A DNA stretch of 64,000 nucleotides from Antedon mediterranea (Eukaryota; Echinodermata; Crinoidea; Comatulida; Antedonidae). Each line of letters starts with the position of its first letter. The first letter of the stretch is position 1. Below the pieces are notes generated by a model. The model saw only the letters and a list, made by a program, of their open reading frames with translations, had not been told where the DNA came from and did no database searches. The position numbers were made by a program, and so were the translations under genes. Shown here one piece after another: positions 904 through 59,560 of this stretch. The stretch is taken from assembly GCF_964355755.1 (NCBI RefSeq), contig NC_092674.1:12531001-12595000 (forward strand), written 5' to 3'.

Positions 904-1002
904 TTTGGTCTGAAGATCCAATTGAGCACCTTCCTTGAGCAAAATGGAGCAAACATCTGTGTGGCCGTTTTTTGCAGCCACATATAAAGGTGACGCTCCA
1001 AT
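904..1002 (-). CDS. ankyrin repeat exon G (single repeat, internal exon)
   Basis: Internal exon encoding one complete 33-residue ankyrin repeat. On the minus strand it is preceded by an acceptor ending TTTCAG and followed by GTAAGTGT. The exon is phase 0 at both ends and starts at the first residue of the canonical repeat (I-G-A-S-P-L-Y-V-A-A), followed by helix 2 (ILLKEGA). Ankyrin repeats stack into a protein-binding solenoid, so the product is probably a binding or scaffold protein; its other domains are not visible. Codon 1 is Ile where Asp is usual. Its DNA sequence is identical to exons E and F, showing very recent duplication or gene conversion. No stop or frameshift. It is the most 3' ankyrin exon of the gene in this window. 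Confidence 0.85.
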
Positions 1003-2071
1003 CTGAAATATTACAAACATTATGTTATAGTATTTTCTCTCTCTAAACTAAGTATTATAATATTGTCCTGGAATCAATACGATGTGATCATTTAAAAATG
1101 ACGTTATAGATTTAAATTATGCTACATAGTTAAATTAAATAAAGAGTATTAACCCTTTTCTTTAAGATAATGTATTGTATACATATACATTTTTTGTCTT
1201 TCTTGTAGGCCTATAACATTTTTTTTACATTTTTTTATAAATTTATAAAACAAATAAGTGTTTTTTTCTTTTTTTGGCCTGAAAAGTAAACACTTCATCC
1301 GATAGTGCTAACTAGTCTGAATGTAAACTGGCAGTTACAGCTAAAAATATATCTAGGCTCCAAATTCTGTTCAGGTAACACACTTTTACTGCAAAATTCT
1401 TACAATGATTACGGAATCTATTACGAGAGGTGATGGAATTTTTCTTTGAACGTCAAAATAGAGCATTGGATAGGTTGGGTCTTGCAAAATTTAATGTGTT
1501 TCCTCAATAAAGTCTCTTATAAAAGTGAATCAAATTGAGATTTACTTAATTATAACTACTGTAAGTGAAGCATAACTAAAAATACGTTCCAGCTAATTCT
1601 TACATAGTGAATAATGATAATATTTTTAATGACAGATTTATAAAAAAAATAATTAGGCCTATGGGAGGTTTAACTACAAAAGATTTAAGTCTACGCAAAA
1701 GTAAAGTCTATTTGATACTCTCATTAATGAGGTCGTGCCATTTAGGATCACTACGGTAGTGATTTATTTGCAATCTCAACTTCAGATTGGGTACCGTACC
1801 GTATTTCATGATTTAGGTGATTTTCCTATTTTTGTTTGTTACTTTGGGTGGAATATACTGTATGGTACTGCAAATAAGTCAATCTATAATAATAACCCAC
1901 TACTCTAATATTAACCCATGGGGGTTACTCTTCAAGTCACAAAAACTTATGATACAGCTGTATTTTGAAAATAAGGAGATAATGCAGGTTGATCTTGGGA
2001 GTGGGGTAGGATTGAGTGTTTTTGAGTTCAAACAAATTTGTTTATTCGTACTGTTTTATTATTTTGCTATG

Positions 2072-2150
2072 AGTTGCGTCACTTTACTGATATTGTTTTT
2101 CTTTGTAAGATTTTCAATTCTAATATAATTAATACTGACAATTTTTTTAA
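2072..2150 (+). mobile_element. CR1/L2-like LINE remnant, left part
   Basis: Matches the head of the CR1/L2-like fragment that is continuous at 18790-18864 and 29766-29840. Here it is separated from its continuation at 3586 by Helitron 1, which inserted between the A and T that are adjacent in the uninterrupted copies. Confidence 0.6.
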
Positions 2151-3585
2151 CTAGATGGTACGCTCGCTTCGCTCGCGTACCATCTAGGTCGTGCCCACAG
2201 ATGGTTCTCGAATACATAATAATTTCAGCGTTAAAAAACTGGCGATTTCAAATGTACGTACCGCAGGACAAATACATGTCGTTTACAGGAACGAATAAAT
2301 AGACAATGTGATTTATGTACTCAACTAAAAATAGCACCCTGGGAATTACTTCCGAAAGAGAAACTTGTCACAAAATGAGACCAATTGTTTAAGTCAAATT
2401 TAAACAAACTTAATTTGTGTTTTGTATGTAACATTAGGGTTGAGGGATGGGGAAGAGGATGGGTGGAAAGAAGAACAATTTTTAAATATATTCTTTATCT
2501 ATTTAGTAAAGAAATATTAATTGTTTTCATGTTTTACAAATAATATACCACTAAACACAGAGTAAAACATTGCGATGTAATACTTTGTTGAAGCTATAAC
2601 CGTCCAAGTCGATTGAAATAGTACAGTACATGTAACGATGTAACATCACTACGACAACGTGTATATGTTTATATAATGTAAAACAATTTGTGAAAACCAC
2701 CTCTATTTGGGGCAAATCATAAATTCGATTTAATCATCAATATATATTAAATTATCTAACTCAACTTAATTAGTAGGCCTAATGGTTTTCAATTGTTTCT
2801 TAGAGCCAATTCTTACTTAAGTTGGTTCCTACCCTACCCACCAAAGTTGTTCTGCGTTTAGGGCATGTGATGCACTGTAGGCCTATCCTCTACTGGATTG
2901 ACAACGCTACTCATGCCAGTGAGGGAAGGGTGATGATGTGGGTGGTTTAACTGCAATAATAAATATTTGTACATAAATATACGGCGACTGAAAACGCTAG
3001 CTCATTATCTGTTTAAAAAAAATGTATATCCAACCTCTGCAGCACAGATTGAAATAAAAATGGATCGAATTTCTGTTATGAGTATACAGTACTTGCCTTT
3101 ACGACGCCTGAAGGAATAGACGCTTGTGGAACAGAGATTGGAATGTTCCATTCATCGCAAATCAATACATTGGTAAAAACGTATATTAAATCTATCAAAA
3201 TAGCATTTTTAAATCGGCCTGTCTTCAACATTATGATGCTGTACTCGAACTGTTCAACCGGTTTTCAGCTATTAAAAACAATTATCGTAGGAGGTGATAG
3301 GAAAATGCGAAGTGTCCTCGTATTATTGTGTGCGGGTATTTTTCAAATTGGACATCCATTAGACAGTGTATACCACGATCGGAAAACACCCCTATTTGGG
3401 GCAAATCGTTGAACCTAAATTCGTCAATAACTAATTATCGAATTCAATTTAATTAGTAAACAGGGTTATATCAGGTGGTTAAAATCAGTACCGAAAGTAC
3501 GAACCAACTTTACATACCATCGAGTAAACATTCTAGAAATAACGCGCGATTTACCGAATTTTGCCCTTACGTAAATTTATATAGA
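2151..3585 (-). mobile_element. Helitron 1, non-autonomous, minus orientation
   Basis: Rolling-circle-type element. Read on the minus strand it starts TCTATATAAATTTACG and ends in a perfect hairpin with stem CTAGATGGTACGC / GCGTACCATCTAG, the last four bases being CTAG. The paralogous sites at 18864/18865 and 29840/29841 are empty and show insertion exactly between A and T with no target duplication, the Helitron hallmark. No Rep/helicase frame is visible, so it is non-autonomous. The interior shares long homology with Helitron 2. The 89-codon ORF at 3143-3412 lies in this shared interior and matches nothing I recognise. Confidence 0.82.
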
Positions 3586-12042: not shown

Positions 12043-13039
12043 GGTATGTATTCAATTATCTCAACACAAATACCAATTTAAATGCAATGGTTTCTGTGAT
12101 TAGTTCTTTAGTTCTTTTAAATATGTCTACTATAATCTTTCCATCTCTTCTGAAAACTGTTTTCAATACAATCAATTGCCTGTTGTAGATACAAACAAGG
12201 AAAACGCTTATTCATCATTACTAACAAGTAAGTTATCAATGCTAGTTATTTCTTCAGGTTGATGTACTTACATTTCCATCACATAACCCTTACTTTCTAT
12301 CACGTAAAGTATTAAGAGTACACGCCGGTTCATGTGCGCCATATTATTGCTCATATAATCTTTACTAAAATAATTTTGCAAGCACGTTAATGTATTGATT
12401 CAACATTACTTTGTTTATCAATATTAGGGTTGTATATTCATATGAAGTAATAATATTAACAAGGTCAACACTCGGGAAACCACATTTTCTGGAAAAAATC
12501 AATGGATTTGATACTGCATGACATTTTTTTTCTGTTATTAACCATAATAGGAAGTAAAAATAAAATGTCAACTATTGCTATATGTTGGGGTTAAAGGTCA
12601 CCAAATACAGGTCAAAAATACAAAAAAAATCATATTTTTAAAATAAAACCATTATAATAGTTTAGATTCACGGTGATTCTAGAAACAGCAGCGAATTTAT
12701 CAAAACTGTTGTTTTTGCTCTTTTAAATTGAAATTGCATGGTTTCTCCCAGTTTCCATTGTTAACAAGACACTATTAAAATTTACCAAACATAACATTAT
12801 TAGTGGATTTATATTTAATATGTCTTCTTCCTAAACAATATTAAAAATTTTGGATTGCCAAATTTACCATTTTTGAACTTTTGGCACACTTTGAATTGAT
12901 TCTGTCCCACTGTGCCATGGGCCAGGAGCTATTCCTTTATTATTCTATTTTTTTTTAAATCGGTAATCGTGATCCTTTATAACTTGTTGCATATAATGTG
13001 CCAGCGTGCTACGTTCTAGACATTGGAATAGTAAACAAC
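12043..13039. repeat. unit interior, copy 1
   Basis: Non-coding interior homologous to 4021-4889 and to 30414-31228. It contains the recurring unrecognised 68-codon minus-strand ORF (12365-12571). 13031-13039 is the GTAAACAAC target duplication of the next LINE. I see no gene in it. Confidence 0.5.
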
Positions 13040-14228
13040 TAATAGTAAAAATAACTTGAAACGAATTGTAAACGTCTGTCCAGCATTAGAGATAATCTTA
13101 AAATTCTCTTCTGGAAAGAGGTAATAGATGTATGGAGTAATTTTATTTCTCTTCATTATCCAAAGTCTGTTGACGATCTATTACGAATGCAAATTTGGAA
13201 TAATGAAGTAATAAGAATAGGCAACGAATGTATAAGATATGGACATTGGGAAAAAGCAGGTATTCTGTTTGTTAATGATTTGTTTAACAGCAATGGGCAA
13301 TTTATGAACAAAAAAGAAGTCGAAGATACATATGGAATTAAGATAAATTATATAAAATTAATAGGATTAAGGAGGCTTCTTATGGAAAAATTTAACAATT
13401 TAATGATATGGGAAATAAAAAAAACTGTTTTGCCATATATTCCATTTCATATAAAAAGTACTCTTTCAACAAAGAAAGGGATGTCGTATTTTTTATGATG
13501 TTTTAAATAACTCAATGTTTAAATCATGGAAAGCACAAAAGAAATGGGCAGAGAATAAATTTGTATTCAATAACGAACAATTGAAAACAATCTACCTAGA
13601 TCCACATACGTGTATAATGCATATTGTTTTAATATATTTTCAATATAAAATTGTAAACAGAATAATTGCAACAAATGAACAATTATTTAAAATTAATATA
13701 AAAGAAACTTCAATGTGCTCATTTAGAGATGGTAAAATTGAAACCATTTTGCATTTGTTCTGTAATTGTCGAATAGTAAAAAGGATATGGAACCTCCTCC
13801 AGGAAAAAAATATCAGAAAAAACTTGAGCGCATTTATTTTTAGTAAAGAGAGCTATATTTTCGGATACCAAGATGCGCATCAGTTTTATAATTTAAAAGT
13901 CATTAATGCAATTATTCTAATTGTAAAATCATTTATTTATAGTTAAATGTAAGCCAACTATCAAAATGGTTATGAACGAGTTAAAAAGGTTTTATGAAAC
14001 GGAAAAATGTATTTATCATCAGAATTTCCAGGACAGTATTTTAAATAGAAAATGGATAAAATTAGAAGCAGTTATAAATCAAATATGAAATTGTTAGAGA
14101 TTAGAATAATTTTTATGAACCTTTATTTAATTTGTGAGATGGATATCTTTGTTGTTTTTTGTTTAATTTTTATTTTTTATTTGATTATGTTTTTCCTTTG
14201 TAATGTATTATAAGATGGAAAAAAAAAA
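13040..14228 (+). mobile_element. Tx1/L1-like LINE, 5'-truncated copy b
   Basis: Target duplication GTAAACAAC at 13031-13039 and 14229-14237, with an A-tract at the 3' end. It carries the same coding remnant as copies c and d without the nested insertions of copy a, so it serves as their empty-site control. A very recent tandem duplication starts inside it at about 13500: downstream of that point it matches copy c nearly perfectly, upstream less well. Confidence 0.75.
13187..14088 (+). pseudogene. Tx1/L1-like LINE ORF2 C-terminal remnant, copy b
   Basis: Two open segments, 13187-13498 and 13515-13946, are joined by a frameshift (one extra T near 13489-13492); a third follows after another frameshift and stops at 14086-14088. 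The first has the IWNNEVIRIGNECIRYG-type block found after the reverse transcriptase in L1/Tx1 LINEs. The second has the zinc-binding RT-associated region: N-E-Q-L-F near the start, a Cys (SMCSF), E-T-I-L-H-L-F and C-N-C-R-I-V-K-R-I-W. The catalytic reverse transcriptase and endonuclease are absent by 5' truncation. Confidence 0.7.
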
Positions 14229-14237
14229 GTAAACAAC

Positions 14238-16559
14238 CAAATAAAAGTGAAATTGGGTAGACTTGTAAATGGTAGTTGCGAATTAATTGCCATTTCTTAC
14301 AAAGGGAGCATACCGCCTCTCGAAACTACGTATTTTGGTACCTGGATGTGTATAGCATGGCCTCCGGATGTCTACGCATGAGCTGGACCAACTTCTAAAT
14401 ATATTTACTCTATAAATATTTCTTACAGAGGGACACCGCCAGATTAAGTGCGTCCTATCACTAGTAAGTAACTTGATTCTGATTTCTAACTACAGGACAG
14501 ATATTGACGCGTAAACCACAAAGAAAATGAGTTTGTGAATTAGTAGACGTTTTACTGTAATATTAAATATATTTGTTACTAAAAATTAGTTTGATAAAAT
14601 ATATTCTACAAAATTAGTAGGCCTAATCGTTTTCCCCTAATAAATTAAGGGGATGGGGGGTGGGGGCACGTGTTTGTTTATGAGTGAGAATCAATAAGGC
14701 ATTTAGTTAAAATGCAGACCGTCTTAAATTACTGGACATGTTCCGATAAATATATTCTCATCATCAGAATTGTAATCAAAGCCTAGAATACTTGTATACG
14801 TACAAAGTTGCGTTTAAATGAGTCAATCATTAGCATGAGAATAGATTTATCGAAACATGTCACGTAATTTTAAGATGGTCCACATTTTCATTAAATGCCT
14901 TATGATATTATTGATTATCAATCGTAATTTGGTGGTATTATACATGATGTGCCTGTTTATATACAGTGAAAGAGCTTATTTTAGTATCCTATAGTAATAT
15001 AGTTTCTATATAAGAGAATATGTTATTTCAAATCAGGTACAAAAGCCGACGATCCAAGCGAATTACATGTTTAAAAAAAATCGGAAAACACTCATTTGTT
15101 ATTTTCAAAACACATTGAAAATCGGCGCGGTCCGATGGCATTCGTGACTGGCGGAAAAACGCAACAAAAATGAAAAACGAAAATGGCATGTTGTGTTTTC
15201 TGTAGGCCTATACAGTAATTAGTTTCTCAGATACCACCGTTTACAGTAGTATAATTGGGTGTTTATTTCAAGCTCATATCAACGGGCAAAGAAATCCTCG
15301 TTATTAAAAAAAACATATTTAAACTTATTCACTATAGTATATTTAAATTATCTACTTATTACTTTATTTATATATTGTTTTCTCTTTTTACTTGGTTAGA
15401 TAAAACAAACGGAAAACATTCTAGTTGAAATTGTTTATGTTAATTATATCCACAGATTGCACTATTTTCTTTATACTTAATTAGGTAATCTTTTCGTACT
15501 GTTGGGAATTGATAAATATTTCAGTTCAATTATTTTCCAAAATAGTGGTACACAACAATGAAAGAAAACAACATTTTTGTTACGTTCTTGTCATTAGAAA
15601 TATTCTTGCGACTGAGGTGAACTTCGAAAATGCCGGTCAGATATAAAAAAAAACAGTTACAAGGAATAAATTAGCAATTGTCACTGCATACTCATCCATC
15701 AAACTAGCCTACATCGAGAAAATATTTAATTCTATGAATCTTATGATGGTTAGTTTTATAGGAACAATAGTACTATTTTTATTTGTTTTGGCAATTAATG
15801 CAATTAAAGCGTAATTAATTCGTCATATTCCATTTGGAATACTACGTCCTGTAAAATGACTATAGAATGTTCTGATTTGTTAATTTTTAAATTATATTAT
15901 AATATACAGAATTATATATTATTTAAAATGTTCGGGTAGCTTCCATGCATGCGGCTTTTGGCCTTAATGGAAGTCCTTTTGTATATTTTTTCTTTTTTTA
16001 CAGTATAATTTAATTTTGTTTAAACTACAGGCGTGGCCCGTGAAAAAAAAAATCAAAGTATATGTATCGCCGTCAACGGCAAATATTGGAGCAGATCAAA
16101 AACTACATCAACCGGGAAATCACGAAATCAATTTTATACCGCGGACGATTGAAAATCTGCCGATGAAATCAGAAAGGTTGTTTTAACACCTTTTATAATA
16201 TCTGCCTAAGAGAGAAATATTATTAAATCTACGTTTCGCGTATCTGAGATAGATAATGTAGGTATGCAAGGCGGAAATCTTTTTCCATTGTGCTCAAAAG
16301 TAACCATAATTTAAGTATAGATACACTAACATCGTGGAGCACATTTAGCTCGTAGTATCATGTACGTGCACATAGCATCGCATTGGTAAGTCACAAACAT
16401 ATTAGTGAAATGCACAACACTGCAGTAATATTTATTAAAACATAAAGGTTATGAAATAATCAAATTAAACAAATGTCTATCCTTACACGTACGAAAAAAA
16501 CACCAACAGTTATCTAACAACACGAATTCCTTACCTTCGCGCAAACACTGAAAGAACGA
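14238..16559. repeat. unit segment between LINE copy b and cassette F
   Basis: Contains the foldback element 14696-14901, a GC-richer patch near 15115-15180 (CGGCGCGGTCCGATGGC), AT-rich sequence, and a 51-codon plus-strand ORF at 16031-16183 preceded by a possible splice acceptor CTACAG. That frame stays open at 27007-27159 and near 33616-33770, but I recognise no domain. The whole stretch matches 25214-27535. Confidence 0.55.
14696..14901. repeat. foldback element, copy in unit 1
   Basis: Same imperfect inverted repeat as 8218-8424: arms start AAGGCATTTAGTTAAAATG and end with the near-inverse. Paired positions have drifted independently in some places, so it looks like a decaying transposon rather than a conserved RNA. 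Confidence 0.6.
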
Positions 16560-17462
16560 ATGATTATTTATTATGCTTAATTCTGGAATAGGTATGCACA
16601 ATGTAAAACGCATAGCACCAACTCCTTGTCGGTTCTTACCCCAGCTGTTCCATTCATCTAATATCTTAGAAAAGATAGTATTAGTGTTTTTAATGTCTTA
16701 TGTCATCGGTAGACTTTTAACAGTCATCGGTAAAGTTACTTCCGAGTTCGTCATCACTTTACGATTTCCAACTTCGCTGTATAGTCCCAATAAAACCTCT
16801 GTACAAAACGCTTGCAGCTGTCCCACATATGAACGTGGCATGTACATTTGATATACATTTGAGTCCAGATAGTTCATGTTTCTCTCTTTAAACGTCAAAA
16901 TGTACTAATTTGTATTAATTATATTGTAGAATACTATGGTTTGGCTATTTAATATTATTGTAACTCAGACTGTTTAAAACTTAATGAAGAAATAGCTCAT
17001 AATGTGTAATATGTTATAAATTCTGTATACACTACGATAGGACGTGACGTTATTATTATATTACAGTTGTAGACTATGTATAAATTTTATAATGTACCGC
17101 GATGGTAAGATTCGCATAGAAATTAATAATATTACAAGTAATAAATATTAATTTATAAAGATTAAACAAGTTATTACAAAGTTTGACATCAATTGTGACA
17201 AAACCTTGGTTAATCTGACTTTCCAATGTCAAGATTAACCATGACGAGGCAGTGGTGTTCCGAACCATGTGAGGGATACAACCGTGCAGTTCTCGACAAT
17301 TTAGTCATCCTCGCCACAAAAATGGTCTGTAATATGACCCACGATGTGCTTGCTTCATTTAGGTATGTTATTATTGGCACGCCCTTTATATTGTAAAATT
17401 AAACACTTTTTTAAATCACATTGAATTATATAGCACATATTATTTATGTGTGTAACACTTAC

Positions 17463-17561
17463 TTTGGTCTGAAGATCCAATTGAGCACCTTCCTTGAGCA
17501 AAATGGAGCAAACATCTGTGTGGCCGTTTTTTGCAGCCACATATAAAGGTGACGCTCCAAT
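17463..17561 (-). CDS. ankyrin repeat exon F (single repeat, internal exon)
   Basis: 99-bp phase 0 exon encoding one full ankyrin repeat (I-G-A-S-P-L-Y-V-A-A, then N-G-H-T-D-V-C, then I-L-L-K-E-G-A). Minus strand; acceptor TTTCAG, donor GTAAGTGT. The DNA is identical to exons E and G. Located about 11 kb upstream, in gene sense, of exon G's neighbour block and 11 kb downstream of E. No disabling change. Adding or skipping it would keep the reading frame because length and phase are symmetric. Confidence 0.85.
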
Positions 17562-18121
17562 CTGAAATATTACAAACATTATGTTATAGTATTTTCTCTC
17601 TCTAAACTAAGTATTATAATATTGTCCTGGAATCAATACGATGTGATCATTTAAAAATGACGTTATAGATTTAAATTATGCTACATAGTTAAATTAAATA
17701 AAGAGTATTAACCCTTTTCTTTAAGATAATGTATGTATACATATACATTTTTTGTCTTTCTTGTAGGCCTATAACATTTTTTTTACATTTTTTTATAAAT
17801 TTATAAAACAAGTAAGTGTTTTTTTCTTTTTTAGCCTGAAAAGTAAACAGTTCATCCGATCCGATAGTGCTAACTAGTCTGAATGTAAACTGGCAGTTAC
17901 AGCTAAAAATATATCTAGGCTCCAAATTCTGTTCAGGTAACACACTTTGACTGCAAAATTCTTACAATGATTACGGAATCTATTACGAGAGGTGATGGAC
18001 TTTTTCTTTGAACGTCAAAATAGAGCATTGGATAGGTTGGGTCTTGCAAAATTTAATGTGTTTCCTCAATAAAGTCTCTTATAAAAGTGAATCAAATTGA
18101 GATTTACTTAATTATAACTAC

Positions 18122-18158
18122 GCTTCACTTAGTAGTAGTAACTACTACTAAGTGAAGC
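18122..18158. repeat. perfect palindrome, 18-bp arms
   Basis: Arms GCTTCACTTAGTAGTAGT and its exact inverse are separated by one A. Cassettes G and A carry only the right arm region (GTAAGTGAAGC), so the left arm seems to have been copied from the right arm, as in template-switch replication. Also present at 29098-29134. Confidence 0.8.
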
Positions 18159-18789
18159 ATAACTAAAAATACGTTCCAGCTAATTCTTACATAGCGAGTA
18201 ATGATAATATTTTTAATGATAGATTTATAAAAAATTACTTAGGCCTATGGGAGGTTTAACTACAAAAGATTTAAGTCTACGCAAAAGTAAAGTCTATTTG
18301 ATACTCTCATTAATGAGGTCGTGCCATTTAGGATCACTACGGTAGTGATTTATTTGCAGTCTCAACTTCAGATTGGGTACCGTACCGTATTTCATGATTT
18401 AGGTGATTTTCCTATTTTTGTTTGTTACTTTAGGTGGAATATACTGTATGGTACTGCAAATAAGTCAATATATAATAATAACCCACTACTCTAATATTAA
18501 CCCATGGGGGTTACTCTTAAAGTGACAAAAACTTATGATACAGCTGTATTTTGAAAATAAGTAGATAATGCAGGTTGATCTTGGGAGTAGGGGAGGATTG
18601 AGTGTTTTTGAGTTCAAACAAATTTGTTTATTCGTACTGTTTTATTATTTTGCTATAAGTTGCTGACCAAAAAAGTTGGGGTGGGTTACTATTTTCAGGT
18701 GCTTAATTTAAGATTAGTAATAGTAACCCATTACTCTAATTGTAACCCCCCTTCCAATATATATAATCTATATAATCATTATTGTATTG

Positions 18790-19293
18790 GCGTCACTTTA
18801 CTGATCTCGTTTTTCTTTGTAAGATTTTCAATTCTAATATAATTAATACTGACAATTTATTTAATATTCGTAATCCAAAACGAGTTACTCGTAGCTCATC
18901 TTCTGTTGGTACTCTTTTTGATATTCGTCGCTGCAGAACTGAATCTTCTTTTCAATCATATCCCACGTGTTACCAGAATTTGGAATAACTTACCCAGTGA
19001 AATCCGCAACTTAAATATTTCTGTTAGTTCTTTTAAAGCCAAATTACTTAATTATCTCAATATTTATTCTTTAAATAATTTTGATATTGAAAAAGTGTGT
19101 AGTTGGTCGCTTTCTTGTAGATGCTTTAATTGTAGAACGTAATTTATTTATTTTTCTTATATGTTTCTTCTGGTTTGACAAACTAGCATAGGTGTTTAAC
19201 ACCTGTTTGGTCTTTCCGTGCCTCCTTTTATAATTATTTTGTCTTCTTTTTCATGTATATGGCAGAAATTGAATACATAAATAAATAAACACG
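18790..19293 (+). mobile_element. CR1/L2-like LINE 3' end, continuous copy
   Basis: Uninterrupted version of the fragment split at 2150/3586. Coding remnant in two frames: 18782-18988 covers a stretch of the F-D-I-R-R-C-R-T-E-S-S-F type, then 18906-19142 covers R-V-T-R-I-W-N-N-L-P-S-E-I-R-N and S-F-K-A-K-L-L-N-Y-L. This order is typical of the very C-terminus of CR1/L2/Jockey reverse-transcriptase proteins. The 3' end is an AAATA-like tail. Truncated and frameshifted. Confidence 0.7.
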
Positions 19294-19436
19294 GTATGTA
19301 TTCAATTATCTCAACACAAATACCAATTGAAATGCAATGGTTTCTGTGATTAGTTCTTTAGTTCTTTTAAATATGTCTACTATAATCTTTCCATCTCTTC
19401 TGAAACCTGTTTTCAATACAATCAATTGCCTGTTGT

Positions 19437-19441
19437 AGATA
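19437..19441. repeat. 5-bp target duplication AGATA, left copy
   Basis: AGATA directly precedes the 5' LTR and recurs at 23190-23194 after the 3' LTR. The unoccupied paralogous site near 30409-30418 has it once. Confidence 0.9.
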
Positions 19442-23189: not shown

Positions 23190-24005
23190 AGATACAAACA
23201 AGGAAAACGCTTATTCATCATTACTAACAAGTAAGTTATCAATGATAGTTATTTCTTCAGGTTGGTGTACTTACATTTCCATCACATAACCCTTACATTC
23301 TATCACGTAAAGTATTAAGAGTACACGCCTGTTCATGTGCGCCATATTATTGCTCATATATTCTTTACTAAAATAATTTTGCAAGCACGTTAATGTATTG
23401 ATTCAACATTACTTTGTTTATCAATATTGGGGTTGTATATTCATATGAAGTAATAATATTAACAAGGTCATCACTCGGGAAACCAAATTTTTGGGAAAAA
23501 AGCAATGGATTTGATACTGCATGACATTTTTTTTCTGTTATTAACCATAATAGAAAGTAAAAATAAAATGTCAACTATTGCTATATTTTGGGGTTAAAGG
23601 TCACCAAATACAGGTCAAAATACCAAAAATTATATTTTTAAAATAAAACCATTATAATGGTTTAGATTCACGGTGATTCTAGAAACAGCAGCGAATTTAT
23701 CAAAACTGTTGTTTTTGCTCTTTTAAATTGAAATTTCATGGTTTCTCCCAGTTTCCATGGTTACAAGACACTATTACAATTTACCAAACATACCATTATT
23801 AGTGGATTTATATTTAAGATGTCTTCTTCCTAAACAATATTAAAAAGTTTGGCACACTTTGAATTGATTTTGTCCCACTGTGCCATGGGCCAAGAGCTAT
23901 TCCTTTATTATTCTATTTTTTTTAATCGGTAATCGTGACCCTTTATAAGTTGTTGTATATGATGTGCCAGCGTGCTACGTTCTAGACATTGGAATAGTAA
24001 ACAAC
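23190..24005. repeat. unit interior, copy A, after the LTR element
   Basis: Continuation of the interrupted unit. Matches 30413-31228 almost exactly. Contains the recurring unrecognised 68-codon ORF (23368-23574). No gene seen. Confidence 0.5.
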
Positions 24006-25204
24006 TTAACTAATAGTAAAAAGAACTTGAAACGAATTTTAAACGTCTGTCCAGCATTAGAGATAATCTTAAAAAATTCTCTTCTGGAAAGAGGTAATAG
24101 ATGCATGGAGTAATTTTATTTCTATTCATTATCCAAAGTCTGTTGACGAGCTATTAAGAATGCAAATTTGGAATAATGAAGTAATAAGAATAGGCAACGA
24201 ATGTATAAGATATGGAAATTGGGAAAAAGCAGGTATTCTGTTTGTTAATGATTTGTTTAACAGCAATGGGCAATTTATGAACAAAAAAGAAGTCGAAGAT
24301 ACCTATGGAATTAAGATAAATTATATAAAATTAATAGGATTAAGAAGGCTTCTTATGGAAAAATTTAACAATTTAATGATATGGGAAATTAAAAAAAAAA
24401 CTGTTTTGCCAGATATTCCATTTCATATAAAAAGTACTCTTTCAACAAAGAAAGGGATGTCGTATTTTGTATGATGTTTTAAATAACTCAATGTTTAAAT
24501 CATGGAAAGCACAAAAGAAATGGGCAGAGAATAAATTTGTATTCAATAACGAACAATTGAAAACAATCTACCTAGATCCACATACGTGTATAATGCATAT
24601 TGTTTTAATATATTTTCAATATAAAATTGTAAACAGAATAATTGCAACAAATGAACAATTATTTAAAATTAATATAAAAGAAACTTCAATGTGCTCATTT
24701 AGAGATGGTAAAATTGAAACCATTTTGCATTTGTTCTGTAATTGTCGAATAGTAAAAAGGATATGGAACCTCCTCCAGGAAAAAAATATCAGAAAAAACT
24801 TGAGCGCATTTATTTTTAGTAAAGAGAGCTTTATTTTCGGATACCAAGATGCGCATCAGTTTTATAATTTAAAAGTCATTAATGCAATTATTCTAATTGT
24901 AAAATCATTTATTTATAGTTAAATGTAAGCCAACTATCAAAATGGTTATGAACGAGTTAAAAAGGTTTTATGAAACGGAAAAATGTATTTATCATCAGAA
25001 TTTCCAGGACAGTATTTTAAATAGAAAATGGATAAAATTAGAAGCAGTTATAAATCAAATATGAAATTGTTAGAGATTAGAATAATTTTTATGAACCTTT
25101 ATTTAATTTGTGAGATGGATATCTTTGTTGTTTTTTGTTTAATTTTTATTTTTTATTTGATTATGTTTTTCCTTTGTAATGTATTATAAGATGGAAAAAA
25201 AAAA
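24006..25204 (+). mobile_element. Tx1/L1-like LINE, 5'-truncated copy c
   Basis: Target duplication GTAAACAAC at 23997-24005 and 25205-25213, with a 3' A-tract. It holds the junction of the recent tandem duplication near 24476. No nested SINE or TTAA element. Confidence 0.75.
24160..25066 (+). pseudogene. Tx1/L1-like LINE ORF2 C-terminal remnant, copy c
   Basis: Open segments 24160-24474 and 24467-24922 overlap by a frameshift near 24463-24470. Same layout as copy b: the I-W-N-N-E-V-I-R-I-G block, then the zinc-binding region with H-L-F-C-N-C-R-I-V-K-R-I-W. The second segment differs from copy b by one residue (Phe for Tyr in the S-x-I-F-G-Y motif), the first by several. Confidence 0.7.
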
Positions 25205-25213
25205 GTAAACAAC

Positions 25214-27535
25214 CAAATAAAAGTGAAATTGGGTAGACTTGTAAATGGTAGTTGCGAATTAATTGCCATTTCTTACAAAGGGAGCATACCGCCTCTCGAA
25301 ACTACGTATTTTGGTACCTGGATGTGTATAGCATGGCCTCCGGATGTCTACGCATGAGCTGGACCAACTTCTAAATATATTTACTCTATAAATATTTCTT
25401 ACAGAGGGACACCGCCAGATTAAGTGCGTCCTATCACTAGTAAGTAACTTGATTCTGATTTCTAACTACAGGACAGATATTGACGCGTAAACCACAAAGA
25501 AAATGAGTTTGTGAATTAGTAGACGTTTTACTGTAATATTAAATATATTTGTTACTAAAAATTAGTTTGATAAAATATATTCTACAAAATTAGTAGGCCT
25601 AATCGTTTTCCCCTAATAAATTAAGGGGATGGGGGGTGGGGGCACGTGTTTGTTTATGAGTGAGAATCAATAAGGCATTTAGTTAAAATGCAGACCGTCT
25701 TAAATTACTGGACATGTTCCGATAAATATATTCTCATCATCAGAATTGTAATCAAAGCCTAGAATACTTGTATACGTACAAAGTTGCGTTTAAATGAGTC
25801 AATCATTAGCATGAGAATAGATTTATCGAAACATGTCACGTAATTTTAAGATGGTCCACATTTTCATTAAATGCCTTATGATATTATTGATTATCAATCG
25901 TAATTTGGTGGTATTATACATGATGTGCCTGTTTATATACAGTGAAAGAGCTTATTTTAGTATCCTATAGTAATATAGTTTCTATATAAGAGAATATGTT
26001 ATTTCAAATCAGGTACAAAAGCCGACGATCCAAGCGAATTACATGTTTAAAAAAAATCGGAAAACACTCATTTGTTATTTTCAAAACACATTGAAAATCG
26101 GCGCGGTCCGATGGCATTCGTGACTGGCGGAAAAACGCAACAAAAATGAAAAACGAAAATGGCATGTTGTGTTTTCTGTAGGCCTATACAGTAATTAGTT
26201 TCTCAGATACCACCGTTTACAGTAGTATAATTGGGTGTTTATTTCAAGCTCATATCAACGGGCAAAGAAATCCTCGTTATTAAAAAAAACATATTTAAAC
26301 TTATTCACTATAGTATATTTAAATTATCTACTTATTACTTTATTTATATATTGTTTTCTCTTTTTACTTGGTTAGATAAAACAAACGGAAAACATTCTAG
26401 TTGAAATTGTTTATGTTAATTATATCCACAGATTGCACTATTTTCTTTATACTTAATTAGGTAATCTTTTCGTACTGTTGGGAATTGATAAATATTTCAG
26501 TTCAATTATTTTCCAAAATAGTGGTACACAACAATGAAAGAAAACAACATTTTTGTTACGTTCTTGTCATTAGAAATATTCTTGCGACTGAGGTGAACTT
26601 CGAAAATGCCGGTCAGATATAAAAAAAAACAGTTACAAGGAATAAATTAGCAATTGTCACTGCATACTCATCCATCAAACTAGCCTACATCGAGAAAATA
26701 TTTAATTCTATGAATCTTATGATGGTTAGTTTTATAGGAACAATAGTACTATTTTTATTTGTTTTGGCAATTAATGCAATTAAAGCGTAATTAATTCGTC
26801 ATATTCCATTTGGAATACTACGTCCTGTAAAATGACTATAGAATGTTCTGATTTGTTAATTTTTAAATTATATTATAATATACAGAATTATATATTATTT
26901 AAAATGTTCGGGTAGCTTCCATGCATGCGGCTTTTGGCCTTAATGGAAGTCCTTTTGTATATTTTTTCTTTTTTTACAGTATAATTTAATTTTGTTTAAA
27001 CTACAGGCGTGGCCCGTGAAAAAAAAAATCAAAGTATATGTATCGCCGTCAACGGCAAATATTGGAGCAGATCAAAAACTACATCAACCGGGAAATCACG
27101 AAATCAATTTTATACCGCGGACGATTGAAAATCTGCCGATGAAATCAGAAAGGTTGTTTTAACACCTTTTATAATATCTGCCTAAGAGAGAAATATTATT
27201 AAATCTACGTTTCGCGTATCTGAGATAGATAATGTAGGTATGCAAGGCGGAAATCTTTTTCCATTGTGCTCAAAAGTAACCATAATTTAAGTATAGATAC
27301 ACTAACATCGTGGAGCACATTTAGCTCGTAGTATCAGGTACGTGCACATAACATCGCATTGGTAAGTCACAAACATATTAGTAAAATGCACAACACTGCA
27401 GTAATAGTTATTAAAACATAAAGGTTATGAAATAATCAAATTAAACAAATGTCTATCCTTACACGTACGAAAAAAACACCAACAGTTATCTAACAACACG
27501 AATTCCTTACCTTCGCGCAAACACTGAAAGAACGA
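25214..27535. repeat. unit segment between LINE copy c and cassette E
   Basis: Copy of 14238-16559 with very few changes. Includes the foldback element 25672-25877 and the 51-codon plus-strand ORF at 27007-27159. No supported gene. Confidence 0.55.
25672..25877. repeat. foldback element, copy in duplication B
   Basis: Identical in layout to 14696-14901, carried along by the tandem duplication. Confidence 0.6.
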
Positions 27536-29840: not shown

Positions 29841-30269
29841 TATTCGTAATCCAAAACGAGTTACTCGTAGCTCATCTTCTGTTGGTACTCTTTTTGATAT
29901 TCGTCGCTGCAGAACTGAATCTTCTTTTCAATCATATCCCACGTGTTACCAGAATTTGGAATAACTTACCCAGTGAAATCCGCAACTTAAATATTTCTGT
30001 TAGTTCTTTTAAAGCCAAATTACTTAATTATCTCAATATTTATTCTTTAAATAATTTTGATATTGAAAAAGTGTGTAGTTGGTCGCTTTCTTGTAGATGC
30101 TTTAATTGTAGAACGTAATTTATTTATTTTTCTTATATGTTTCTTCTGGTTTGACAAACTAGCATAGGTGTTTAACACCTGTTTGGTCTTTCCGTGCCTC
30201 CTTTTATAATTATTTTGTCTTCTTTTTCATGTATATGGCAGAAATTGAATACATAAATAAATAAACACG
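29766..30269 (+). mobile_element. CR1/L2-like LINE 3' end, duplicate copy
   Basis: Copy of 18790-19293 from the recent duplication, with the same frames (29758-29964, 29882-30118) and the same frameshift. Confidence 0.65.
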
Positions 30270-31228
30270 GTATGTATTCAATTATCTCAACACAAATACC
30301 AATTGAAATGCAATGGTTTCTGTGATTAGTTCTTTAGTTCTTTTAAATATGTCTACTATAATCTTTCCATCTCTTCTGAAACCTGTTTTCAATACAATCA
30401 ATTGCCTGTTGTAGATACAAACAAGGAAAACGCTTATTCATCATTACTAACAAGTAAGTTATCAATGATAGTTATTTCTTCAGGTTGGTGTACTTACATT
30501 TCCATCACATAACCCTTACATTCTATCACGTAAAGTATTAAGAGTACACGCCTGTTCATGTGCGCCATATTATTGCTCATATATTCTTTACTAAAATAAT
30601 TTTGCAAGCACGTTAATGTATTGATTCAACATTACTTTGTTTATCAATATTGGGGTTGTATATTCATATGAAGTAATAATATTAACAAGGTCATCACTCG
30701 GGAAACCAAATTTTTGGGAAAAAAGCAATGGATTTGATACTGCATGACATTTTTTTTCTGTTATTAACCATAATAGAAAGTAAAAATAAAATGTCAACTA
30801 TTGCTATATTTTGGGGTTAAAGGTCACCAAATACAGGTCAAAATACCAAAAATTATATTTTTTAAATAAAACCATTATAATGGTTTAGATTCACGGTGAT
30901 TCTAGAAACAGCAGCGAATTTATCAAAACTGTTGTTTTTGCTCTTTTAAATTGAAATTTCATGGTTTCTCCCAGTTTCCATGGTTACAAGACACTATTAC
31001 AATTTACCAAACATACCATTATTAGTGGATTTATATTTAAGATGTCTTCTTCCTAAACAATATTAAAAAGTTTGGCACACTTTGAATTGATTTTGTCCCA
31101 CTGTGCCATGGGCCAAGAGCTATTCCTTTATTATTCTATTTTTTTTAATCGGTAATCGTGACCCTTTATAAGTTGTTGTATATGATGTGCCAGCGTGCTA
31201 CGTTCTAGACATTGGAATAGTAAACAAC
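30270..31228. repeat. unit interior, copy B, with the empty LTR site
   Basis: TGTTGTAGATACAAACAAGG near 30409 is the unoccupied site of the LTR element, with a single AGATA. The rest equals 23190-24005, apart from rare differences such as an A/T change near 30861. No gene. Confidence 0.7.
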
Positions 31229-42119: not shown

Positions 42120-44290
42120 AAAAGACAACGAAGTAAACTATCTTTGATAAATGACTTCCCAAAGTCAATATTAACCTTGACAAGGCACCGGTGTTCCGAA
42201 CCATAATTATGTGAGAGTTACGACCGCCATGCAGTTATCGACAGTACAGTCATCCTCGCTACAAATTACAGTATCTATAATATGACCCGCATTGTGGTTG
42301 GTTTATTTACCTATATTATTACCGGCACGCCCATTAAATTGTAAATAATTTTTTTTTTTTAAATCACACTGAATTATATAGCACCTGTTATTAATAATAT
42401 TTGTAACACTTACATTGTTTGGAAGATCCACTTTAGCACCTGCCTTGAGCAAAATAGTGCAAACGTCTGTGTGGCCCTCTTGTGCAGCTCCATTTAAAGG
42501 TGACCATCCATCCTGAAATAATAACACACATCATGTTATAGAAGTAGTAGTATAGTCTTCTACAAAAAGCTATTTAATATTGTATTGAAATCTTTTCGAT
42601 GTGATCAAGTAAAACTAGCTTAAACACCAGGTGAGGGCAAACAAATTATATTGATCTTGCATTCCAATATCTATAGTTTCCCCTATGTTTCATAATGTTT
42701 GTGATTGTATGTGTGTTACACGAGCTTGTTGAAAATATGCACTTTATTATTAGTGGGGGATAGTTCAAATTACACAATAAAATCTCTATTCATGTGTACA
42801 CAAATGTTGTAAATAGAGAGGCAATTTAAAAAAACTAAAAATAAACAGTGTGGTAAAAAATGTTATCAGAGGACTGAATATAGATAATACTTCATAGTTT
42901 TATTTTCATGCTATAGCAAAAATTATCCACCGTTTATCAACCATCTTTTTTCATCTTCTATAGAGTCACCAGACATGTAATTACACTAGGTTCAACTACT
43001 TAACTACTGAAAAAAGTCTTACTGGTTTTTATAGCAGAATTTTACAAAATTGTGTATTTGACCATTTTAAGGGAAATCCACTTGTTTTCGTCTTGATGTC
43101 TATTACAATTATTTGATTTCTATTACAATTATTTGATTTATGTACAATTTACCAGATATTATATTTAACATTGTTGCCTGTACCTAAGCTTTAACTTAAA
43201 TAAAGATTATTAACATTTGATGTTTTCTTTAAGATAATGTATTGTATATGCATGCATTTGTTTTGCTTGTATATTATTTTGTTATATAGTACGGTACTTT
43301 TATACGTAGCATTTATATATTGCAAATTCGGTAAGAAATTGTGGTCCTTAATATGCATGAAAGATGGTACTAGTTCTGCTACCTGTTATTTTGCTACAAT
43401 TGTCAAAGAACCTATTGATACAGTGCACTGATTGCGTAGTAGAATACTGTAGTTTGATACGGTTAGTGTAATTTTGCGACGGTTGAAAACTTCAACCTTT
43501 AACATTTTTTGTTGGAGACATTGATATACGCACTGTCATATGGAACTTTTAAAGTTAAAACAGCCCCAAATCATATATTATGATAAAGTGGTGTTTGCGT
43601 TTGAACTGGCAGTTACGACTAAAATGTATCGAGGCCCCAAAATATGTTCAGATAACACATTTTGACTGCTAAATTCTTAACTATTGGTTTCATTTTGCTG
43701 TTACTGGTAGAGGATATGTTTAAACAAATTTTTTTACCAAATCAAATGAATACGTCGATTCATATCCATTTTGTGTACCATTTTAATAAAATCGTGTTGC
43801 TCTGTAGGCTACATCACAATATATACAAAAACAGAAAAATCACCATTAAAAAAATCATTCCCTAATATTTAGTACTCTAAATGGTAAAAACTATTAGGAA
43901 ATCTATGTGTATGAGTTGTGATGGACCGCTTCCTTGAACTTCAAAAATGAGATGGGTTGGGTCTTGCAAAATCAAATGTGTTTTCTTAGTAACGTGATCG
44001 CTAATCAATCAAATTGAAAATATACGTGAAGCATAATTAACAATACATTTGAGTTCCAACTTATCCTTACATGTGGTCTCGGTAAACCATGCACCAATGA
44101 TAAAAGTGAGAATACTTTCAATGACCGATTTATTAAAAAAAAACGCAGGCCTGATGGGAGGTTTAACTTCAAACTATTTAAGTCTATGCAAAAAGTAAAA
44201 ACGTTGAGCATGGGCCTTAGTAATAATACTTATTGTCGTGCCATTTAAGATCTCTAGTGATTTATTTACAATGTCAATTCTAGAGGGGGT
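42120..44290 (-). repeat. ankyrin exon cassette D
   Basis: Diverged cassette around exon D. The downstream block (42150-42310) and the upstream landmarks such as CTGGCAGTTACGACTAAAATG (43604), CTTTGAACTTC-type text replaced by CTTGAACTTCAAAAATGAG (43934) and GGGAGGTTTAACTTC (44155) follow the order seen in G, F, E and A, with large indels. ORFs 43237-43431 and 44005-44211 have no domain. Confidence 0.65.
42414..42512 (-). CDS. ankyrin repeat exon D (single repeat, internal exon)
   Basis: 99-bp phase 0 exon. Repeat begins D-G-W-S-P-L-N-G-A-A-Q-E-G-H and ends V-D-L-P-N-N. Acceptor TTTCAG, donor GTAAGTGT. Compared with exon B, nine codons differ and only one (codon 16, GAT/GAC) is silent. Asn at the usual His of the T-P-L-H motif and Gly at the next position are unusual, but the framework residues G2, P5, L6, A9, A10, G13 and the L-L-K segment are kept, so the fold should be preserved. 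Confidence 0.85.
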
Positions 44291-46929: not shown

Positions 46930-47700
46930 GACTTAAAAACTGTATTTGATTTAAGATGTCAAGATTAACATTGATGAGGCAGCGTTGTTCCGAATTACGT
47001 GAGGGGTACCGTGCAGTTCTCGACAATACATTCATCCTCACTACAAAGAGGCCTAAGTTGGTTCATTTAGGTATGTTATTACTGATACGCCCTTTAAAAA
47101 TTGTAAAATTAGCACTTTGTTTTAATCACACTGAATTATAATTATACTGTAGTACATATTATTATTAATGTTTGTAGCACTTACATTCGTCTGAAGATCC
47201 AAATTAGCACCTGCCTTGAGCAAAATAGTGCAAACATCCGTTTGGCCCTTTAGTGCAGCCACATATAAAGGTGACGCTCCATTCTGAAATATTACAAACA
47301 TTATGTTATAGTATTTTTTACTCTAAACAAAGTATTATAATATTGTCCTGCAATCAATACGATGTAATCAATTAAAAATAACGTTATAGATTTAAATAAT
47401 GCTAATAATAGAGGGCTAAAATCACGCATTATGGCTTTGCACGATATTTTTTGGCGTTCCAGATAATTGTTTTTTTATTGTTTACGTGTTTTAATATTAT
47501 TTATGATTTTCAGACATATTTTAAAAGCTTATATGCATGAAAATAGTGTAGTTTTCTCATCTTCTAAATCAAATGTCAACTGTATACGTGAAGCATAATT
47601 TTATTGGATTGTTATTGTATTGTATTATATTGTTAAAACAATACATTTCAGTTCCAACTTATCCTTACATACATAAACTTGGTTCTTAATTGATATGAAA
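46930..47700 (-). repeat. ankyrin exon cassette C
   Basis: Shorter cassette: the downstream block (46955-47075), exon C and about 120 bp of the conserved upstream intron, after which the similarity breaks off near 47400. The GTGAAGCATAA landmark at 47587 resumes it, with an inserted TTATTG-rich stretch at about 47598-47635. Confidence 0.65.
47185..47283 (-). CDS. ankyrin repeat exon C (single repeat, internal exon)
   Basis: 99-bp phase 0 exon encoding N-G-A-S-P-L-Y-V-A-A-L-K-G-Q and ending L-D-L-Q-T-N. Acceptor TTTCAG, donor GTAAGTGC. Gln replaces the His of the G-H-T-D motif. Against exon A, ten codons differ and one is silent (codon 15, ACA/ACG). No disabling change. Confidence 0.85.
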
Positions 47701-51487: not shown

Positions 51488-51491
51488 TGTA

Positions 51492-55949: not shown

Positions 55950-57220
55950 TAATTATTATTAATATTTATAAAGATTAAACAAGTTATTACCAAGTGTGAC
56001 ACCAGTTGTTACAAAACCTTGGTTAATCTGACTTTGCAATTTCAAGATTAACCTTGACGAGGCAGCGGTGTTCCGAACCATGTGAGGGGTACAACCGTGC
56101 AGTTCTCGACAATTTAGTTGCAACAAAAATGATCTGTAATATGACCCGCGATGTGGTTGCTTCATTTAGGTATGTTATTACTGACACGCCCTTTAAATTG
56201 TAAAATTAAACACTTTTTAAATCACACTTAATTATATAGTAATATTATTATTAATGTGTGTAACACTTACTTTGGCCTGAAGATCCAATTTAGCACCTTC
56301 CTTGAGCAAAATAGTGCAAACATCTGTGTGGCCGTTTTGTGCAGCCAAATGTAAAGGTGACCATCCATCCTGAAATATTACAAACTATGTTATAGTAATT
56401 TTTCTCTAAACAAAATATTATAATATTGTCCTGAAATCAATACGATGTGATCAATTAAAAATGACATTATAGATTTAGATAATGCTACATTATTAAATTA
56501 AATCAAGAGTATCAGCCCTTGATGTTTTCTTGAAGATAATGTATTGTATATGTATACATTTGTCTTTCTTGTATAACATTTATTATATAAGTGCTTTATA
56601 AATCTATAAAACAAATAAGTGGGGTTTTTTTGCCTTAAAAATAAACACTTCATCCGATAGTGCTAACTAGTCTGAGTGTAAATTATGATAAACTGGCAGT
56701 TAGCTAAAATATCCATACTTTAAATTCTGTTCAGGTAACACATTTTGACTGCTAAATTCTTATCATTCATGGTTTCATTTTACCGTTACTTGGAGGGGAT
56801 ATGTTTTTTTAAATGTTTTATAAAATCAAATAAAAATCTCGATTCATATCTATTTATTTTATCATTTTGCATAAAATACAGTGTTGCTCTACAGTACCAT
56901 CCAAAAACAGAAAACTGAAAAAAAAACACGAAATATCATTCTCTAACATTCAGTGCCCTAAAGGCATATGGTAATGATTACAGAATCTATTACGAGAGGT
57001 GATGGACCTTTTCTTTGAACGTCAAAATAGTGCATTGGATAGGTTGGGTCCTCAGTAAAGTATCTTATAAAAATGAATACTGTAGTCCTATACGTGATGC
57101 ATAACTAACAATACGTTCCAGCTAATTCCTACATGTGGTCTTGGTAAACTATAAAACAAGGAATAATGAGAATACTTTCAATGACAGATTTATAAAAAAA
57201 AGATGTACAGTATGCATAAT
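55950..57220 (-). repeat. ankyrin exon cassette B
   Basis: Contains the shared downstream block (56030-56170), exon B and about 800 bp of conserved upstream intron down to GACAGATTTATAAAAAAAAG (57182). Diverged from G/F/E by roughly a tenth of positions and several indels. Confidence 0.7.
56271..56369 (-). CDS. ankyrin repeat exon B (single repeat, internal exon)
   Basis: 99-bp phase 0 exon, the closest of the set to the ankyrin consensus: D-G-W-S-P-L-H-L-A-A-Q-N-G-H-T-D-V, then I-L-L-K-E-G-A-K-L-D. Acceptor TTTCAG, donor GTAAGTGT. Compared with exon A, eight codons differ (3, 7, 8, 11, 20, 24, 31, 32) and none is silent. Compared with E/F/G, eight differ (1, 3, 7, 8, 11, 19, 27, 32), again none silent. 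Confidence 0.87.
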
Positions 57221-57694: not shown

Positions 57695-57729
57695 GTATTA
57701 AAGGCTAACACCGCGGCTTTAAAATGTAT

Positions 57730-57865
57730 ATTATGAATATAGATTGCTGAACCACCACTCATTCGTCCAAGACGGGAATCATTTATTAAGTTGTCATTTT
57801 CAAGATCTATTATATTCGATTTATTGTCGTCAAACCATGTCTCTGACATTACAATTACTGTAAAT
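57730..57865 (-). pseudogene. LINE AP-endonuclease scrap
   Basis: The minus frame gives V-M-S-E-T-W-F-D-D-N followed by L-I-N-D-S-R, then G-G-S-A-I-Y-I-H-N. This spacing matches the S-E-T-W ... G-G-V-A-I-Y-I block of apurinic endonucleases in CR1/L2-type LINEs. Only about 45 residues remain, without the rest of the element. Confidence 0.65.
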
Positions 57866-57900
57866 GTATGACTTAATGACGTTATTATTACATAGTACAG

Positions 57901-59560
57901 TAGACTATGTATAAATATTATAATGTACCGCGATGGTAAGCCGACTCGCAATAAAATTAATAATATTACAAGTAATATTTATTATTAATTTATAACGATT
58001 AAACAAGTTATTACAAAGTGTGACATCAGAAAACCTTGATTAATCTTACTTTACAATGTCAAGATTAACCTTGACGAGGCAGCGGTGTTCCGAACCATGT
58101 AAGGGGTACAACCGTGCAGTTCTCAACAATTTAGTCATCCTCGCAACAAAAAAATGATCTGTAAAAACCCGCGATGTTGTTGCTTCATTTAGGTATGTTA
58201 TTACTGGCACGCCCTTTAAATTGTAAAATTAAACACTCTTTTAATCACACTTAATTATTTAGTAATATTATTATTAATTTTTGTAAAACTTACTTTGTCA
58301 TAAAGATCCAATTTAGCACCTGCCTTGAGCAAAACAGTGCAAACATCTGTGTGGCCGTTTTTTGCAGCCACATATAAAGGTGACGCTCCATCCTGAAATA
58401 TTACAAACATTATATTATAGTATTTTCTCTCTCTAAACAAAGTATTATAATATTGTTCTGGAATCAATACGATGTGATCATTTAAAAATGACGTTATAGA
58501 TTTAAATTATGCTACATAGTTAAATTAAATAAAGAGTATTGACCCTTTTCTTTAAGATAATGTATTGTATTGTATACATATACATTTTTTGTCTTTCTTG
58601 TAGGCCTATAACATTTTTTTACAGTGTTTTATAAATTTATAAAACAAATAAGTGTTTTTTTCTTTTTTGGCCTGAAAAGTAAACACTTCATCCGATAGTT
58701 CTAACTAGTCTGAATGTAAACTGACAGTTACAGCTAAAAATATATCTAGGCTCCAAATTCTGTTCAGGTAACATGACACTTTGACTGCAAAATTCTTACA
58801 ATGATTACGGAATCTATTACGAGAGGTGATGGACTTTTTCTTTGAACGTCAAAATAGAGCATTGGATAGGTTGGGTCTTGCAAAATTGAATGTGTTTCCT
58901 CAATAAAGTCTCTTATAAAAATGAATCAAATTGAGATTTGCTTAATTATTGTAAGTGAAGCATAACTAAAAATACGTTCCAGCTAATTCTTACATAGTGA
59001 ATAATGAGAATATTGTTAATGACAGATTTATAAAAAAAAGACTTAAGCCTATGGGAGGTTTAACTACAAAAGATTTAAGTCTACGGAAAAGTAAAGTCTA
59101 TTTGACGGTAGTGATTTATTTGCAATCTCAACTTCAGATTGGGTACTGTACCGTATTTCATGATTTAGGTGATTTTCCTATTTTTGTTTGTTACTTTGGG
59201 TGGAATATACTGTATGGTACTGCAAATAAGTCAATCTATAATAATAACCCACTACTCTAATATTAACCCATGGGGGTTACTCTTAAAGTCACAAAAACAT
59301 ATGATACAGCTGTATTTTGAAAAAAAAGGAGATAATGCAGGTTGATCTTGGGAGTGGGGAAGGATTGAGTGTTTTTGAGTTCAAACAAATTTGTTTATTC
59401 GTACTGTTTTATTATTTTGCTATGAGTTGCTGACCAGAAAAGTTTGGGTGGGTTACTATTTTCAGGTGCCTAATTTAAGATTAGTAATAGTAACCCACTA
59501 CTCTAATAGTAACCTCCTTCCAATAGTAACTCACCCTAAAAAACAATCAAAGAATAATAA
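57901..59560 (-). repeat. ankyrin exon cassette A
   Basis: Upstream (58393-59530) it is only about 2-3 percent different from cassette G by eye. Downstream (57940-58293) it is about a tenth or more different and instead looks like cassette B. The CR1/L2-like fragment that follows in the other cassettes is absent here. Confidence 0.7.
58294..58392 (-). CDS. ankyrin repeat exon A (single repeat, internal exon)
   Basis: 99-bp phase 0 exon, the first of the array in the direction of transcription. Encodes D-G-A-S-P-L-Y-V-A-A-K-N-G-H-T-D-V-C, then V-L-L-K-A-G-A-K-L-D-L-Y-D-K. Acceptor TTTCAG; donor GTAAGTTT. Compared with E/F/G seven codons differ (1, 19, 20, 24, 27, 31, 32) and none is silent; six of the seven are in the second half of the exon. 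Further upstream exons must lie beyond about 59.5 kb or outside the window. Confidence 0.85.

Follow-up and report, generated by a model that had tools for sequence, protein, structure and literature searches.

What is an array of closely similar ankyrin-repeat exons, differing almost only at amino-acid-changing positions, doing in the genome of a feather star? Seven such exons (A to G) lie in a 64,000-nucleotide stretch of Antedon mediterranea (C5:12531001-12595000, where C5 is contig NC_092674.1), which we call the window; coordinates of exons, duplicates and other elements given without a contig prefix are window positions. The initial annotation proposed that the concave binding face of the repeat is under diversifying selection while the fold is held constant. 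We find that the binding positions diverge faster than neutral, and we consider it somewhat probable (roughly 0.57) that the locus is a tandem ankyrin-repeat recognition gene cluster, or one compound locus, of which ZU5, UPA-like and DED-like exons are likely the output.

Results

All seven exons were borne out. Each is 99 bp long, lies on the minus strand between tttcag and gtaagt, is in phase 0 on both sides and encodes one 33-residue ankyrin repeat: A at 58294..58392, B at 56271..56369, C at 47185..47283, D at 42414..42512, E at 28439..28537, F at 17463..17561 and G at 904..1002. Exons E, F and G are identical in DNA sequence and belong to segmental copies with flank divergence of 0.1-1.5% (0.1% between E and F, 1.5% for G). 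Four joined exons, with A among them, matched Ank (PF00023) in four stretches with an E-value of 1.2e-34 and 116.8 bits against a cut-off of 21.1, and the best solved relative by E-value was Ankyrin-1. As both exon ends are in phase 0, gain, loss or skipping of any exon leaves the frame unchanged.

A recount on the codon table agreed with the annotated differences among the five exon types: 16 of the 33 codons are the same in all, 15 encode different amino acids and two (15 and 16) have silent differences only, while the pairs A/B, A/E and B/E differ at 8, 7 and 8 codons, respectively. The binding positions, which we take to be those randomised in designed ankyrin repeat proteins (DARPins; 33, 1, 3, 11, 12, 24 and 31 in exon numbering), all vary among the five types, for which the chance probability is 0.0015 if 15 of 33 positions vary at random. 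An alignment with a solved DARPin (chain 6mol_A) served to check the register of these positions: exon positions 31, 33, 1, 3, 11, 12 and 24 are among those that vary there, with single changes at 2 and 15 as well. The reported scarcity of silent changes holds among the five types, but is partly a small-sample effect, as the 19 types of the wider array give a proportion of silent differences (pS) of 0.132 and of replacement differences (pN) of 0.152, a ratio of 1.16.

That wider array was defined by reading 334 kb (C5:12411001-12745000, window included) of the genome, which comprises 354 Mb in 18 contigs, and scanning both strands for open 99-bp exons with ag/gt borders and the ankyrin pattern. 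The scan returned 29 exons, all on the minus strand, of which 27 belong to one young family and two are divergent repeats, C5:12423157 on the 3' side of the array and C5:12727010 on the 5' side; a weaker ankyrin match at C5:12733748 (E = 0.11) was left out of the counts. Two damaged copies bring the young family to 29 members in the region. One (C5:12495171) has lost a single base and has an altered donor, and the other (C5:12682929) has an internal deletion of ~52 bp; because the exons are of phase 0-0, such a broken copy could be skipped with the frame unharmed. The 27 intact exons, at a median spacing of 9.3 kb, represent 19 distinct DNA and 18 distinct protein sequences.

Selection was analysed with custom codon-model scripts rather than codeml, and the seven binding positions were named ahead of the tests. 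Pairwise comparison of the 19 types gave an intron p-distance of 0.237, and pN was 0.336 at the binding positions and 0.098 elsewhere. A codon model fitted to the same 19 types returned an omega of 1.47 for the whole exon, with a log likelihood (lnL) just 1.0 better than that for an omega of 1. When measured against the exons' own silent rate, omega was 3.37 at the binding positions (likelihood-ratio test (LRT) 16.5 against 1) and 1.02 elsewhere. A site-class model favoured a positively selected class containing 30% of codons with an omega of 5.4 (2 delta lnL 34.0), and the posterior reached at least 0.95 at codons 1, 3, 7, 8, 11, 12, 27, 31 and 32.

We then used the adjoining introns as a neutral yardstick for 14 of the 19 types, which had alignable flanks (274 columns); this set was chosen after the alignments had been seen, and the types at C5:12453710, 12512834, 12522411, 12446374 and 12433269 were dropped as their flanks no longer aligned well. 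Replacement at the binding positions proceeded at 2.48 times the intron rate (LRT 13.0), compared to 0.73 elsewhere and 1.05 for the whole exon. The silent rate was 0.85 of the intron rate, which is not different from 1 (LRT 0.37), and 0.77-0.81 in repeat runs. With all 19 types, the intron tree reached a length of 2.30 while the exon model gave 0.75 neutral substitutions per site, a threefold difference that would put even the binding positions near 1 on an all-19 yardstick; we attribute the long intron tree to misaligned flanks.

The result was repeated over two trees (the exon and the combined topology) and two mutation models (with or without double-nucleotide changes). Binding positions remained at 2.10-2.48 times neutral, with p-values of 3.2e-4 to 5.7e-3 when the intron rate served as reference and 1.5e-3 to 1.0e-2 when the silent rate did, all of them approximate because the exons are short, related by duplication and likely subject to gene conversion; the whole exon gave 0.89-1.02. 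Multi-nucleotide mutation was insufficient as sole cause, with the binding positions still above neutral when double changes were allowed (2.29 and 2.10). The exon and intron data each reject the other's best topology (approximately unbiased test, p = 0.004 and 0.012) and both accept the combined one; recombination was considered as a cause by redoing the test on the exon topology, where the result held but was weaker. Positive selection on the exon as a whole was rejected: dN exceeded dS in 107 of the 171 type pairs but the intron distance in 44 only, and the whole-exon ratio was 1.16.

The proposal of diversifying selection is thus sustained at the seven binding positions and not for the whole exon (0.89-1.05). 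A ratio at or below 1 against the intron rate, which the initial annotation had named as evidence to the contrary, was found for the exon taken as a whole, and the binding positions did not show it.

Grouping of positions by structure placed the fastest change in the loop and turn. Positions 31-33 and 1-3 evolved at 3.0 times neutral (2 delta lnL 18.6), while the inner-helix positions 5-12, in which fixed and fast codons are mixed, were not different from neutral when pooled (1.3, 2 delta lnL 0.7). Positions 25-30 were at 0.5 of neutral (2 delta lnL 2.1) and the outer helix at 0.35 (2 delta lnL 7.6). Together with framework positions that are held, and many framework codons that carry no replacement at all, this agrees with the constant fold that had been proposed. 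Of the seven named positions, 24 is near neutral (1.3), 33 is slow (0.5) and the other five are fast; positions 7, 8, 27 and 32, outside the named seven, are fast as well.

These rates bear on the strongest alternative, namely that the locus is an ordinary scaffold ankyrin-type gene, whose young repeats experience relaxed constraint at positions exposed to solvent, with fixation afterwards and no role in recognition. Repeats within proteins diverge fast after duplication, in a burst to which relaxed and positive selection both contribute according to Persi et al. (PMC5120217), and the near-neutral rate of the whole exon is in favour of this alternative. Pfam annotation of the protein matches indicates that canonical ankyrins likewise join many repeats with ZU5. 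Relaxation alone, however, can raise a rate to neutral and not above it, and is insufficient for binding positions at 2.1-2.5 times neutral; nor is the high ratio a silent-site artefact in the 14-type set, as the silent rate there is close to that of the introns (0.85). We regard a plain scaffold as doubtful, though it is the best of the alternatives.

Exons and flanks have been copied together. The segment carrying exon F (12187..19441) is 98.7% identical to that carrying exon E (23190..30417), and copies of the same exon type in the array have flanks that differ by 0-5.6% over up to 3 kb. The exon order D', A, B, C is present twice, as duplication of multi-exon blocks would produce.

Transposon-like sequences are interspersed with the exons. 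A young long terminal repeat element lies at 19441-23189, with two 357-bp direct repeats that are 100% identical (19441-19797 and 22833-23189), and relative to the uninterrupted copy at 3574-4585 there is a 5-bp overlap, which points to a target duplication. Its open reading frame (20276-22063, plus strand) has SCAN-type and zinc-knuckle matches and an integrase-tail match below cut-off, with no reverse-transcriptase match in the Pfam scan. Among the intron frames, 40177-40731 (minus strand) has an RVT_1 match just below cut-off, and 52538-53805 (plus strand) resembles the reverse transcriptase of a long interspersed nuclear element, with no Pfam match in the scanned part (52538-53152). At 62160-64000 a stop-free frame of 1521 codons begins that extends past the window end (C5:12593160-12597722, plus strand); within its first 613 codons, SCAN scored just short of the cut-off.

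To place the array in the genome, exon A with its flanks was searched against all contigs. All 40 scored matches (of 90 candidates) lay on the minus strand of C5, between 12.48 and 14.40 Mb. Of the 27 intact exons within the 334-kb region the search retrieved 17, along with one damaged copy, and because it recovered just this fraction, the 22 matches beyond the region are probably an undercount. The divergent 5' exon with its flanks gave seven matches from seven candidates, all on C5 and on the same strand as the array, at 12.727, 12.921, 13.191, 13.361, 13.649, 14.048 and 14.410 Mb. Behind these, in the direction of transcription and ahead of the next divergent exon, stand 18, 3, 3, 1, 6, 4 and 5 young-exon matches, which sum to the 40. 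We read each divergent exon and its trailing matches as one of seven tandem array units, units 2 to 7 being known from match coordinates only. The genome as a whole is rich in ankyrin repeats, and the best 150 of 828 Ank_2 candidates are spread over many contigs, many in short open frames.

On the 3' side of the array, on the minus strand, lies a ZU5 exon (C5:12419244-12419786; PF00791, E = 4.9e-18). A search with its protein sequence against 5.8 billion proteins, with lengths limited by the query, reported eight matches, all from Antedon mediterranea, of which the paralogues P0003 and P0008 map to contig C4 at 96-100% identity over the matched parts. Consensus acceptor and donor sites flank the following exon (C5:12418656-12418793), whose frame runs into a UPA-like stretch as in P0003; the junction between the two is in phase 0, with PSDVK followed by KVKEDHRE, the same as in the annotated paralogue P0003 PSDVKKIKEDHRE. 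A match to the end of UPA was detected 21 kb downstream (C5:12398316-12398540, 50% identity), and 33 kb downstream a DED-like frame with no stop (C5:12385980-12386510) is 67% identical to P0008 and is known as an open frame only.

The ZU5 exon carries HFC at the HF-S autocleavage motif, with cysteine for serine. Histidine and phenylalanine are invariant in all eight aligned ZU5 copies (the first ZU5 of P0001, which falls outside that column, is without the histidine), and the seven aligned paralogues have HFS in three cases (P0003 included), HFC in three and HFT in one. These variants could split the ZU5 family into cleaving and non-cleaving members. Exon-level matches across the genome number 114 for P0003 and 86 for P0008, many on contigs C4 and C9 and on C4, for example, at 16.0-19.7 Mb and 30.7-33.2 Mb; this ZU5/DED-like expansion is a candidate innate-signalling family of its own.

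Another possibility is a compound locus of ~2 Mb in which seven variable units share one constant 3' ZU5-UPA-DED tail through long-range or alternative splicing, as in Dscam or the clustered protocadherins. Each unit would comprise a divergent leading repeat followed by interchangeable ankyrin exons, and splicing or exon content could then yield many DARPin-like specificities. The seven upstream-type exons are all on the same strand, all 40 variable-unit matches have at least one such exon on their 5' side, and the exons are of phase 0-0. No other ZU5 was present on C5 among the best 113 of 338 candidates, and one close DED-like match was found in this part of C5, at its 3' end (best 83 of 590 candidates). 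Further tails may, however, have been missed among candidates beyond those scored, and the farthest unit is ~2 Mb from the tail. We consider a single shared tail unlikely.

Discussion

The continued integrity of the exons favours a recognition cluster. While 27 of the 29 family members remain intact 99-bp exons with ag/gt borders, 26 internal gap events have accumulated in the adjoining introns of the 14-type set, and the length of 16 of these is no multiple of three. That the array is dead or dying, multiplied by segmental duplication and transposons and untranslated, is very improbable: two of 29 copies are broken, the introns hold many transposon-like open frames and no crinoid protein with these repeats is among the matches listed, but 27 copies keep length, frame and splice sites beside such gapped introns, replacement in the outer helix proceeds at 0.35 of the neutral rate and is absent from many framework codons.

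Under the recognition-cluster reading, the locus would work in the following manner. With one repeat per 99-bp phase 0-0 exon, repeats could be gained, lost, skipped or shuffled with no break in the frame. Segmental duplication would supply copies of exons with their flanks, as is seen in the window, and selection would keep the repeat framework and exon length while the binding positions diverge above neutral, as the codon models indicate. Stacked repeats may form a long DARPin-like surface, whose specificity would be set by the exons present or used. The ZU5 exon, UPA-like exon and DED-like frame downstream, identified by homology, are presumably spliced to the array. In PIDD and NLRP1-type proteins, inhibition by ZU5-UPA is released and a death-fold domain is exposed; binding by the repeats might here lift this inhibition in a similar way and uncover the death-fold domain. 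An immune role is conceivable, and the downstream ZU5, UPA-like and DED-like matches lend it some support.

Several observations weigh against this interpretation. The match to the end of UPA at C5:12398316 contains two TAG codons, and the paralogues' UPA and DED matches fall below the Pfam cut-offs (for DED, PF01335, the best paralogue P0008 scored 26.1 bits against 35.9), which is why we use the labels UPA-like and DED-like. The ZU5 acceptor as drawn calls for an upstream exon with a phase-1 end, while the last ankyrin exon seen (C5:12423059-12423157) ends in phase 0, so that the gene model lacks either a linker exon or an alternative acceptor. In two protein searches with the repeats (~7,990 candidates scored in each, lengths about 625-1988 and 218-693, in a database that includes Antedon mediterranea proteins), the best 120 matches of either search bore no crinoid name and were generic ankyrin proteins instead. 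Random sets of seven of the 33 positions reached the observed rate in 4259 of 100000 draws (4.3%), because other exposed positions (7, 8, 27 and 32) are fast too. The conflict between exon and intron trees likely means that some gene conversion has taken place.

Among the matches listed by searches of PMC full text, no paper on such an array in a crinoid appeared. The array would bring a ready-made test with it, as five of the seven positions randomised in DARPins are among the fastest-evolving here, and would give a natural library of how ankyrin surfaces change specificity. A death-fold tail would make the locus a candidate intracellular sensor.

Comparison with known systems

Canonical ankyrins (ANK1-3) have about 24 repeats, two ZU5 domains, a UPA domain and a death domain. 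They share with the array many ankyrin repeats and ZU5, but the array is young and expanding, with one ZU5 on C5 among the matches reported and then a DED-like match; no search for a death domain was made. In Dscam and the clustered protocadherins, alternative exons are arrayed on a single strand ahead of the constant exons. The layout of the array fits this pattern, while the type of repeat differs.

PIDD, NLRP1 and CARD8 place a ZU5-UPA unit beside a death-fold domain and carry an H/S-F-S cleavage motif at the end of ZU5 (PMC3210808). The locus resembles them in its ZU5-UPA-like unit near a death-fold-like match and in the HF at the cleavage position, and departs from them in having cysteine for the cleavage serine (HFC) and ankyrin repeats as the putative sensor. 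In metazoan proteins of apoptosis and immunity, ankyrin repeats as well as ZU5-UPA are found alongside death-fold or TRADD-N domains (PMC8195603).

Fungal NLRs are comparable in the behaviour of the repeats. Their ankyrin and TPR repeats are highly alike, change in copy number and are under positive selection on the concave inner helices and beta-hairpin loops, in the account given by PMC4986451, so that near-identical repeats and selection on the same surface are shared with the array. On that account the fungal repeats belong to NACHT/NB-ARC NLRs, however, whereas the array has one exon per repeat across megabases.

The closest likeness is to the ROCO genes of brown algae, in which exons of a single leucine-rich repeat (LRR), of one length and phase, have multiplied within the gene; positive selection acts at few concave-face positions, and an immune role has been proposed but not proven, as stated in the cited sections of PMC11378527, where the NB-TPR genes (Zambounis et al., 2012, as cited there) are mentioned beside them. 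Here, too, each exon holds one repeat at constant length and phase (27 of 29 copies), and the concave face shows diversifying selection, which is seen at the seven binding positions but neither over the whole exon nor at positions 5-12 pooled. The same source describes 72-bp phase-2 LRR exons before a ROC-COR GTPase and reports alternative splicing, in contrast to the 99-bp phase-0 ankyrin exons of an echinoderm, which precede ZU5, UPA-like and DED-like sequences and show block duplication. No ROC-COR GTPase or NB-ARC core was noticed among the listed open reading frames of the region, where no search was aimed at them, and we therefore describe the array as working like the ROCO and NB-TPR genes rather than as a member of either. 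The locus is best read as organised like the LRR-exon receptor genes of brown algae, perhaps with signalling through a death-fold tail, and a megabase ankyrin-exon version in an echinoderm would add an animal case to the repeat systems with a selected concave face.

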